Shown here: piece by piece, positions 8,823 to 41,282 of the stretch
Layout: each line of letters begins with the position of its first letter
Position numbering within the stretch: position 1 is the first letter of the stretch
DNA from: Halobaculum limi
GTDB lineage: Archaea > Halobacteriota > Halobacteria > Halobacteriales > Haloferacaceae
Direction: 5' to 3'
DNA length: 64,000 nt
Assembly: GCF_029490015.1 (NCBI RefSeq)
Contig: NZ_CP120468.1
Span: 372,001-436,000, forward strand
Notes under the pieces: generated by a model
What the model saw: only the letters and a program-made list of their open reading frames with translations
Database searches by the model: none
Told to the model about the DNA's origin: nothing
Position numbers and translations under genes: made by a program

Positions 8823-10121
8823 ATGCCTGGAGACGACACCGACTACGGTTTCTGGACGCGCAGCGTCCACGAAGGAGCAGACCCAGACCCGACGACCGGT
8901 GCGCGAGCGCCGCCCATCCACCAGACCACGTCGTACGTGTTCGACGACGCCGACCACGCGGCTCGACTGTTCGCTCTCGAGGAGGAGGGCTACATCTACA
9001 GTCGCCTGCTCAACCCCACGGTCGCACGGCTGGGCGAGCGGCTCGCCTCGCTGGAGGGCGGCGTCGGTGCCGTCCCGACGGGGTCGGGGATGGCGTCGTT
9101 CGACCTGGCGAACTTCCTGCTCGCGTCCGCCGGCGACAACATCGTCTCCTCGTCGTCGCTGTACGGCGGGACGTACACCTACCTCACACACACCGTCGAG
9201 CGGCGCGGCGTCGAGACGCGGTTCGTCGACACGCTCGACTACGAGGCGTACGCCGAGGCCATCGACGACGACACGGCCTACGTCCACCTCGAGACCATCG
9301 GGAACCCGGCGCTCGTCACGCCGGACATCGAGCGGATCGCAGACATCGCCCACGACCACGACACGCCGCTGTTCGTCGACAACACGTTCGCGACGCCGTA
9401 CCTGTGCCGCCCGATCGAACACGGTGCGGACCTCGTGTGGGAGTCGACGACGAAGTGGATCCACGGCTCCGGGTCGACCGTCGGGGGCGTCCTCGTCGAC
9501 GGCGGGTCGTTCCCGTGGGGCGAACACGCCGACCGCTTCCCCGAACTCGGCGCGGAGAACCCGGCGTACCACGGCGTCAACTTCGCCGAGCGGTTCGGCG
9601 AGGCGGCGCTCACCTACGCCGGCATCGCTCGCGGCCTCCGCGACCTGGGGAGCGCACAGTCGCCGTTCGACGCGTGGGCGACGATGCAGAAACTGGAGTC
9701 GCTGCCGATGCGGATGGAGCGCCACTGTTCGAACGCTCAACACGTCGCCGAACACCTCGCGGACCACCCGGCGGTCGACTGGGTGACGTACCCGGGGCTG
9801 CCGGACCACGAGACGCACGCCGAGGCGTCGGAGTACCTCGACGGCGGCTACGGTGGGATGATCGCCTTCGGCGTCGAAGGCGGGTACGACGCTGCCCGCG
9901 ACACCGTCGAGGGGACCGAACTGGCGTCGCTACTCGCAAACGTCGGCGACGCGAAGACGCTCGTCATCCACCCGGCGAGTACGACCCACCAGCAACTCAC
10001 CGAGGAGGAGCAACTGGCCGCCGGCGTCACGCAGGATATGATCCGCCTGTCCGTCGGCGTCGAGAACCCCAAGGACATCGTCGCCGACCTCGACCAGGCT
10101 ATCGACGCGGCGACGCGGTAA
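8823..10121 (+). CDS. metY: O-acetylhomoserine sulfhydrylase / Cys-Met metabolism PLP enzyme, copy 2
   Basis: Second PLP enzyme of the same family, 432 residues, collinear with copy 1 along its whole length. Shared blocks include [24 protein letters not shown] and [22 protein letters not shown] with the PLP lysine K211; [11 protein letters not shown] lies near the C-terminus. It lacks the glycine-rich N-terminal tail of copy 1. It lies 97 bases after metX and has its own TATA-like GCTTAGG about 30 bases before the ATG, so it may be transcribed separately. The two copies could divide sulfhydrylase and cystathionine synthase work; sequence alone does not decide. Confidence 0.87.
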   Translation: MPGDDTDYGFWTRSVHEGADPDPTTGARAPPIHQTTSYVFDDADHAARLFALEEEGYIYSRLLNPTVARLGERLASLEGGVGAVPTGSGMASFDLANFLLASAGDNIVSSSSLYGGTYTYLTHTVERRGVETRFVDTLDYEAYAEAIDDDTAYVHLETIGNPALVTPDIERIADIAHDHDTPLFVDNTFATPYLCRPIEHGADLVWESTTKWIHGSGSTVGGVLVDGGSFPWGEHADRFPELGAENPAYHGVNFAERFGEAALTYAGIARGLRDLGSAQSPFDAWATMQKLESLPMRMERHCSNAQHVAEHLADHPAVDWVTYPGLPDHETHAEASEYLDGGYGGMIAFGVEGGYDAARDTVEGTELASLLANVGDAKTLVIHPASTTHQQLTEEEQLAAGVTQDMIRLSVGVENPKDIVADLDQAIDAATR

Positions 10122-10170
10122 CGCGGTCGCACCGAAGGCGGTGACGGGGTCGCTCGAAAGGGGCTGACAG

Positions 10171-10299
10171 GCGGCCCGTGTGACCGGCCGAATCGGTCAC
10201 GACGCCGGAGGACGGGCCGCACACCCGCGTCCCCTCCGGCGGCAATCGTCAGCGTCGCATCGGCGAGGGTGGTCCCGGCATCCGAGATGAACCCTCGCC
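10171..10299 (+). ncRNA. Candidate structured RNA (multi-stem, possible pseudoknot)
   Basis: Four long perfect stems fall within about 130 bases after metY copy 2. Stem A is GCGGCCCGT (10171-10179) with ACGGGCCGC (10212-10220). Nested stem B is GTGACCG (10180-10186) with CGGTCAC (10194-10200), with a 7-base loop. Stem C is CGCCGGAGG (10203-10211) with CCTCCGGCG (10233-10241); it crosses A, so the two form a pseudoknot or exclude each other. Stem D is GGCGAGGGT (10262-10270) with ACCCTCGCC (10291-10299). No convincing ORF covers the stretch. It could be a 3' UTR element, a stand-alone RNA or, less likely, coincidence in GC-rich DNA. No hallmark of tRNA, SRP RNA or RNase P RNA is seen. Confidence 0.4.
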
Positions 10300-10320
10300 C
10301 GAGCCGGTCCGGTTCGGCGT

Positions 10321-10354
10321 TTGCCGACCGACCGACGGATCGCCGCGTCGGCAA
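10321..10354. promoter_or_regulatory. Inverted repeat just upstream of the PPC-gene TATA box
   Basis: TTGCCGAC (10321-10328) and GTCGGCAA (10347-10354) form a perfect 8-bp inverted repeat separated by 18 bases. The right arm ends two bases before the TATA-like GCTTTACT (10356-10363), which itself lies 27 bases before the start of the PPC-domain gene. This is a good position for a regulator binding over the BRE; no factor is known to me. Confidence 0.4.
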
Positions 10355-10386
10355 CGCTTTACTGCCTCTCGGTCGACGCCTCGCGT

Positions 10387-10806
10387 ATGAACTACCGTGA
10401 GGTTGAGGTCAGCGGCGAGTATATGGCCAGTCTCGACAACGGCGCAGACTGGCGCGAAGAGATCGAATCGCTCGCGGACGAAGTGGAGGCGGACGCCGCG
10501 TGGTTCAACGCGATGGGCGCGGTGCAAGACGCCGAGGTGTGGTTCTACGACCAGGACGACCAGGAGTACCAGTCGGTCACGTTCGACGAACCGCTGGAGG
10601 TCGCGGCGTGCGTCGGCAACGTCGCGCTTCTCGACGGCGAGCGATTCGCACACACCCACGCCGTCCTCTCACGTCGGAGCGGGCAGGCGCTGGCGGGCCA
10701 CCTCGACGGCGGCACCGTCTTCGCGGGCGAGGTGTACTTCCGCGCGTTCGAGGAGTCGCTGGAGCGCGAACACGACGACGTGACCGATCTGGATCTCTGG
10801 TTGTAA
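10387..10806 (+). CDS. PPC/DUF296 domain DNA-binding-like protein
   Basis: A 139-residue single-domain protein of the PPC (plants and prokaryotes conserved, DUF296) family, with the conserved start YREVEVSGEYMASLDNGADW, the central AWFNAMGAVQDAEVWFYD and the metal-site region FAHTHAVLSRR followed by GHLDGGTVFAGEVYFRAFE. In the family the histidines bind a metal; some members are DNA-binding but most archaeal ones are uncharacterised. I chose the ATG giving MNYREVEV because it has a TATA-like box 27 bases upstream; a longer reading starts in the inverted-repeat region. Confidence 0.85.
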   Translation: MNYREVEVSGEYMASLDNGADWREEIESLADEVEADAAWFNAMGAVQDAEVWFYDQDDQEYQSVTFDEPLEVAACVGNVALLDGERFAHTHAVLSRRSGQALAGHLDGGTVFAGEVYFRAFEESLEREHDDVTDLDLWL

Positions 10807-10856
10807 CTGGCATCGCCGGGCGGTCGCGTCGCCACCGACCGGCGACGGACGAATCG

Positions 10857-10863
10857 CTTATGA
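10857..10863 (+). promoter_or_regulatory. TATA-like box upstream of polC
   Basis: CTTATGA lies 28 bases before a GTG at 10888 and about 170 bases before the polC ATG. If used, polC would have a leader of roughly 145 bases that includes a 10-bp inverted repeat. Confidence 0.35.
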
Positions 10864-10887
10864 CCCTCCTCCGCACAGGAAAGTGAC

Positions 10888-11037
10888 GTGCACCGACGAC
10901 CCCGAGACGTGAGCCGAGGTGACGCGGCGGCCGCCGCCGCGACGCCGACTCCGGGGTCGTCACTATCGAAGCCGCGGGCGACGCGACGGAGCGCCCGCAC
11001 GCGAGGACGGCGGACGACGACGGAGGCGACCCGATGA
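10888..11037 (+). CDS. Possible 49-codon upstream ORF ending on the polC start (doubtful)
   Basis: A GTG 28 bases after a TATA-like box opens a frame whose TGA overlaps the polC ATG as ATGA, the layout used for translational coupling in this window. The product would be very basic (many Arg), unlike the acidic proteins around it, which argues against a working protein. The polC frame itself reads acidic from about 10941 (DADSGVVTIEAAGD...) but has no start codon after the stop at 10920-10922. The stretch may be a leader, a decayed coding remnant or chance. Confidence 0.2.
   Translation: MHRRPRDVSRGDAAAAAATPTPGSSLSKPRATRRSARTRGRRTTTEATR
10895..10961 (+). other. 10-bp inverted repeat in the polC upstream region
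   Basis: GACGACCCCG (10895-10904) pairs perfectly with CGGGGTCGTC (10952-10961) around a 47-base loop. The loop contains the 14-bp palindrome GCGGCGGCCGCCGC (10924-10937). If transcribed in the polC leader this would fold into a stable branched hairpin. Confidence 0.35.
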
Positions 11038-38214: not shown

Positions 38215-38323
38215 ACCCACGGCTGGGCGAGCCAACGGTTTAGTCGTTGCTTCGACGGTGGGGACGGCGCGGACAGCGGAGACGGCGGAGCGATGGCGAA
38301 CAGGCGGCGACGCGATACCGTAC

Positions 38324-38342
38324 CGGGTGTGCCGCACACCCG
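38324..38342 (-). terminator. Perfect 8-bp hairpin after the epimerase gene
   Basis: CGGGTGTG, CCG, CACACCCG: an 8-bp stem with a 3-base loop, 73 bases past the epimerase stop and 110 bases before the next gene on that strand. No U tract follows, so it may instead stabilise a 3' end or act as a binding site. Confidence 0.35.
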
Positions 38343-38414
38343 CGACCCCGGCACGGCCGTACTCAGGTCACGGGAGGAGTGCCCCCGGCTTCGCTGATGA
38401 ACGTTCGCAGCGAG

Positions 38415-41139: not shown

Positions 41140-41282
41140 CCGACGAGCGTTCGCGAATCCTTTTGTCCGAAGCCGGGACCACCGCCGCCGTGACGTAGCG
41201 ACGGCCGTCGGGGGCCACGGCGGGTGTGCGGTCTCCCCTCGACGAAACCGACCGGCCGCGACCGCCTGTCAGCCCTGTACTC

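Follow-up and report, generated by a model that had tools for sequence, protein, structure and literature searches.

Predicted leaderless RNA genes with a start-stop mini-ORF and an H-type pseudoknot form a dispersed family in Halobacteria, with one copy between metY and a PPC-domain gene of Halobaculum

Thousands of small RNAs of haloarchaea are unexplained, and some of them are found on ribosomes without making protein. Two kinds of genetic element outside this set are of interest for comparison: the H-type pseudoknots that direct frameshifting or readthrough, which lie 6-7 nt past a stop codon, and the REP- or BIME-like intergenic repeats, which are dispersed behind genes and are neutral in orientation. 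In Haloferax volcanii, untranslated sRNAs with ribosome occupancy have been described (PMC12482152). Two-codon minigenes, such as mg2 of axe-txe and that of the LEE1/ler leader of EHEC, are thought to matter through their translation and not through their product, and ACT, a codon for Thr, is classified there as toxic (PMC8708949). In Haloferax, 72% of the coding transcripts are leaderless, leaderless GUG starts are known, and the promoter motifs of these transcripts are a precedent for those described below (PMC4983044).

The element studied here lies in the genome of Halobaculum limi, between metY (8823-10121) and a PPC-domain gene (10387-10806); all positions refer to the window, which is the whole stretch of 64,000 nucleotides that was analysed. 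We lean modestly towards the reading that it is one copy, copy 1, of a multi-copy haloarchaeal gene for a leaderless, ribosome-engaging small RNA, and that it acts neither through a protein product nor as a cis switch. Table 1 compiles the features on which this reading draws.

Table 1. Coordinates of the element, of its parts and of the other two copies in the window.
Feature	Position	Strand	Evidence or comment
Copy 1 of RNA gene	10160..10299	minus	R1 97.1 bits, E 1.4e-21
BRE/TATA-like promoter of copy 1, GGCGAGGG TTCATC	10286..10299	minus	comparative, 117 independent copies
Predicted leaderless mini-ORF of copy 1, ATG CGA CGC TGA	10249..10260	minus	start-X-stop pattern in other copies
Stem C, 5' strand (RNA sense)	10233..10241	minus	pairs with 10203-10211
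Stem C, 3' strand (RNA sense)	10203..10211	minus	pairs with 10233-10241
Stem A, 5' strand (RNA sense)	10212..10220	minus	pairs with 10171-10179; crosses C
Stem A, 3' strand (RNA sense)	10171..10179	minus	pairs with 10212-10220
GCGGGUGUGCG, internal-loop side between stem A and outer G-C clamp	10218..10228	minus	nearly invariant in alignments
3' block CGCCUGUCAGCC, opposite internal-loop side	10162..10173	minus	nearly invariant in alignments
Optional hairpin B, variable loop between C and A	10180..10200	minus	varies among orthologs
Stem A	10171-10179/10212-10220		9 bp perfect
Stem B	10180-10186/10194-10200		7 bp perfect
Stem C	10203-10211/10233-10241		9 bp perfect
Stem D	10262-10270/10291-10299		9 bp perfect; chance feature
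Copy 2	38293..38409	minus	R1 96.5 bits; same-site orthologs in other Halobaculum species
Mini-ORF of copy 2, GTG ACC TGA	38371-38363	minus	
TATA-like sequence of copy 2	38401-38396	minus	
Copy 3, between ends of uvrC and upp	41152..41276	plus	R1 85.9 bits
Mini-ORF of copy 3, GTG ACG TAG	41190-41198	plus	

A sequence-only reading of the window had reported four perfect stems at 10171-10299, with stem B inside stem A and stem A crossed by stem C, and had called their density unusual. All four are present where it placed them and their coordinates give that topology; the interval itself needs a small extension, the conserved unit beginning at 10160. The density is indeed unusual, as three stems of at least 9 bp occur in none of 1000 dinucleotide shuffles and in none of the 496 other 129-nt tiles of the window. 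At least four stems of at least 7 bp are also reached by 41 of the 1000 shuffles, and the folding energy of the element is weak evidence alone (z -2.14, with 8 of 200 shuffles equally good). The proof of the stems is comparative and does not come from folding energy: covariation of A and C is strong, as seen over more than 200 copies.

When related genomes were searched at the DNA level for the element, many non-orthologous matches fell on one and the same portion of the query sequence; 40 copies were retrieved and aligned, and 28 sequences served to build a covariance model, R1. With R1, 24 copies were found in the Halobaculum genome itself at E < 1e-7, all on its 3.05-Mb contig (C1) and three of them in the window; the existence of more than one copy had escaped the sequence-only reading, as had the mini-ORF. 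The 24 clear copies leave 771 kb of C1 empty (0.456-1.227 Mb) and cluster at 2.89-2.96 Mb, and contig C2 has none. Nine further genomes carry 25-34 R1 matches each at E <= 0.001, and at E <= 1e-5 the model matches 167 of 292 Halobacteria genomes, that is, over half of those sampled, in 45 of 77 genera. No match outside the Halobacteria was found in a 197-genome sample of the phylum, in which the matches were confined to the same order; none was found on plasmids, and none in viral sequences by an exact-pattern scan, which would miss diverged copies.

The proposal that the element is a new structured RNA has held. Rfam 15 gave no match in the whole window at the family gathering thresholds, and a search of 9500-11000 at E up to 10 gave only chance-level matches, none of them on the element. 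We found no account of such a family in the literature searched, most subscription papers lying outside its scope, and on these grounds the start-stop pseudoknot RNAs appear to be an undescribed small-RNA family.

Absence of covariation in relatives had been named beforehand as the result that would speak against an RNA structure, and covariation is present for both A and C. At least eight of the nine pairs of stem C are Watson-Crick in 97 of 115 copies, versus about 11 when the partners are swapped between copies, and all seven pairs of stem A are kept in 67 of 113, versus 5.5 when swapped. An independent set of 120 copies from other genera, retrieved after R1 was made, gave 99 of 117 for stem C (12.6 when swapped) and 66 of 117 for a perfect stem A (6.1 when swapped). 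The covariation score of alignment A3 is 0.340 versus 0.162 for shuffled alignments, and none of 500 shuffles reaches the observed value. Two crossing helices are thus both retained by compensatory change, and their arms are joined by an internal loop of almost unchanging sequence; the outer G-C/C-G clamp that closes this loop is paired in 97.9% of cells. By this comparative evidence, A and C make up a true H-type pseudoknot whose internal loop is conserved. RNAalifold alone recovered only stem A, missing C because C crosses A. Hairpin B differs in length and sequence between orthologs and is frequently still a hairpin, and a candidate CUGAC/GUCAG pairing was rejected, the changes on its two sides failing to covary. 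Stem D, counted as a fourth RNA helix by the sequence-only reading, pairs no better than the partner-swapped controls; its high arm coincides with the promoter of copy 1, the site is mostly promoter DNA, and since D is not conserved, it counts as a chance feature among the four stems.

The strand of the RNA can be read from wobble pairs. With a strand-neutral choice of register, stem C has 57 G.U versus 16 A.C pairs on the minus strand of the element, and a plus-strand count agrees in this bias; the wobble pairs of stem A favour neither strand. Since those of stem C lie on one side, the RNA most probably corresponds to the minus strand of the reported element, opposite to the strand on which the sequence-only reading had presented it. 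For copy 3, the R1 match is on the minus strand and the RNA sense is therefore plus. The promoter of copy 1 is at its high-coordinate end and its RNA is read towards metY; this RNA is most probably antisense to both metY and the PPC gene.

In the 117 independent copies, an A+T block occupies positions -30 to -24 before the start codon, with an A+T fraction of 0.69-0.96 versus about 0.3 outside it, preceded by a BRE-like A at -34; in copy 1, the TATA begins 31 nt ahead of the start codon. This is the leaderless geometry of haloarchaea, in which TATA lies about 24-30 nt before the start codon, and a BRE/TATA 24-30 nt before a purine-UG means that the transcript should be leaderless, with its 5' end at the start codon. 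The spacer between promoter and start codon is also conserved in the independent set (gA..ccGgg.CcA) and includes a GA(T/A)GCCGGGGCCA-like motif between TATA and start codon (about 10271-10284 in copy 1), which exceeds what a basal promoter needs; this spacer may be an operator common to all copies. No terminator is visible in the sequence at the 3' end of the element.

Two motifs conserved in the first alignment, TCA and CA(C/T), are respectively a stop codon and a start codon when read on the RNA strand. Among the first 90 copies, 73 have RTG followed by one to four codons (six in one case) and a stop, an arrangement whose position is constant with few exceptions; the lengths of insertions are multiples of three, as in the mini-ORF of copy 1, whose start, two codons and stop include an extra codon common to its orthologs, and in ATG GAC GCC ACG TGA of copy L078. 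The independent set has a start, exactly one sense codon and an in-frame stop, the arrangement of a two-codon minigene, in 118 of 120 copies; the starts are GTG (108) and ATG (10), the stops are TGA (104), TAA (10) and TAG (4), and the other two frames are essentially free of stops there. Because R1 scores sequence in the columns of the start and stop codons, detection favours TGA-like letters, but this bias cannot explain why departures from UGA are confined to UAA and UAG. The middle codon is varied, with 26 kinds in the independent set. It favours Thr, Arg and Ile, its first base is A or C in 107 of 117 copies, and Asp, Glu and Gly are absent from all 117, though they make up about 29% of the residues in ten genes of the window. 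The spacer from stop codon to stem C measures 6-7 nt in 90 of 117 copies. Some weak copies in the Halobaculum genome have lost the start or the stop, which indicates that not every copy is functional. Six copies of this genome (L144, L146, L148-L150 and L152) have lower scores and lack a recognisable start-X-stop, which suggests decaying copies and a birth and death of loci, and a 175-nt match (L145, C1:2889476-2889650) resembles one element in which part of a second copy is nested.

The copies adjoin the 3' side of the stop codons of neighbouring genes and rarely lie between divergent genes. In the orientation of the model, those of the Halobaculum genome are 9 convergent, 7 sense-tandem, 7 antisense-tandem and 1 divergent, showing no preference, a result that speaks against a role in cis within the neighbouring mRNA; the cis switch suggested by the sequence-only reading fails on this point, and an early interpretation of copies 1 and 3 as a riboswitch or 3'-UTR element was dropped. 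The neighbours are unrelated housekeeping genes (uvrC, uvrA, rtcB, tfb, queC, panB, pdxS, kae1-bud32, a ribD-type gene and others), and no common pathway was found among those identified. Copies sit at orthologous sites across Halobaculum and, in a few cases, across genera, and they are old, diverged and vertically inherited. Copy 1 is conserved in 11 Halobaculum species within a metY-PPC spacer that is hypervariable save for the element and the PPC promoter; by this comparison, the element is under purifying selection in place. The PPC promoter, GGCAACG(T/C)TTTACT (in 10340-10390), is almost invariant in these species; beyond this promoter and the element, the spacer sequence varies freely. 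In genus g44, of another family of the order, copy L119 precedes a PPC homolog, recognised by sequence, with a different upstream neighbour, and for L193 of the same genus a PPC-like gene downstream was judged by equal gene sizes and a near-identical promoter region. The PPC-side location may be of ancient origin or may have been targeted repeatedly; the PPC gene as a universal neighbour is ruled out by a genus with only two copies.

Evolution thus bears out the predicted fold, strand, promoter geometry and start-X-stop, and from these we infer transcription, ribosome engagement and a biological role. The element would be transcribed from its own promoter into a leaderless RNA whose first nucleotides are GUG or AUG, one codon (two in copy 1) and a stop. 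A ribosome would load on the leaderless start and make a di- or tripeptide, reaching the stop as its leading edge meets the pseudoknot, where it would be held or slowed; judging by the size of the ribosome, the pseudoknot would presumably touch this edge when the start or stop codon is occupied. The RNA would then act by ribosome engagement or paused termination, whether as a ribosome-associated RNA, by capture of tRNA or termination factors, or by letting the ribosome protect its own 5' end. Tentatively, and with more doubt than we attach to the reading of the element itself, these RNAs could be an unprecedented non-coding class: co-regulated leaderless start-X-stop pseudoknot RNAs, from two to more than 30 per genome, that would capture ribosomes (or dipeptidyl-tRNA and termination factors) and serve as a haloarchaeal system of global translation control or ribosome storage.

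Four other explanations have to be weighed. In the first, which we regard as unlikely, the start-X-stop serves in cis, a ribosome on the mini-ORF protecting the 5' end or controlling decay, and the RNA acts in trans otherwise, by base pairing or protein binding through its GGGUGU/CUGUCA loop. The conservation of the internal loop would fit, and two-codon mini-ORFs can act through ribosome protection of mRNA (PMC8708949), but the constant gap of 6-7 nt between stop and pseudoknot suggests that fold and ribosome meet directly.

The second, which we consider improbable, is a formerly mobile REP- or MITE-like DNA cassette that carries a small-RNA promoter and is tolerated behind genes. Dispersal, neutral orientation and a constant place behind stop codons, rarely between divergent genes, are what it would predict, and one gene pair, for a BNR protein and an FAD protein, has the element facing one way in Halobaculum (L145, L105) and the other way in G055 of another family (L128), a difference that reflects either inversion or independent insertion. 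Against it, the age, divergence and vertical inheritance of the copies at orthologous sites are joined by covariation among orthologs at one site, which requires selection in place, and by the lack of viral (exact-pattern) and plasmid matches.

Very improbable is a readthrough or frameshift element, in which stop and pseudoknot would lead into a longer frame: its geometry is like that of recoding sites and the frames after the stop are often open, but all three are equally so (0.86, 0.85 and 0.84), as G+C-rich DNA would lead one to expect, the loops are free to differ in length, no coding sequence is conserved, and a coding continuation was rejected for want of a frame preference. Scarcely credible is a switch of metY or the PPC gene with a link to sulfur or SAM, which the sequence-only reading had thought conceivable, since, despite the place of copy 1 between these genes in 11 Halobaculum species and of L119 before a PPC homolog, riboswitches of that class are same-strand 5' leaders of sulfur genes and the conserved strand here is antisense to metY and to the PPC gene alike, a separate TATA for the PPC gene lies outside the element, and unrelated neighbours, neutral orientation and orthologous persistence show that the other copies are not such switches.

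The reading as a ribosome-engaging small RNA offers, in a start and a stop codon before a pseudoknot, a concrete and mutable handle on how an RNA may engage ribosomes without coding for protein, and one genus of the same family has only two strong copies, so that complete removal should be feasible there.

Compared with REP- or BIME-like repeats, the element is likewise dispersed, behind genes and neutral in orientation, but its copies are diverged, stay at their sites and show covariation, a promoter and a start-X-stop. It shares with the omega RNAs of haloarchaeal IS200/IS605 transposons (PMC12558985) the character of a multi-copy structured RNA with a pseudoknot, but no tnpB occurs among the neighbours identified, which are housekeeping genes, and it is not at a transposon end, so it was not assigned to that group. 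With frameshift and readthrough pseudoknots it has in common an H-type pseudoknot 6-7 nt after a stop; unlike them, it has no downstream coding frame and only one to four codons upstream. Like the ribosome-occupied sRNAs of Haloferax volcanii, the members are small haloarchaeal RNAs without a protein product, for which ribosome engagement is predicted here, whereas the passages on those sRNAs describe neither a mini-ORF nor a shared family (PMC12482152). The two-codon minigenes resemble it in having a start, one codon and a stop, with Thr as the codon favoured in the haloarchaeal family. They differ in lying in mRNA leaders behind Shine-Dalgarno sites and acting in cis on the downstream gene, whereas the haloarchaeal ORF forms the 5' end of a stand-alone RNA, predicted to be leaderless, with a pseudoknot and in many copies.
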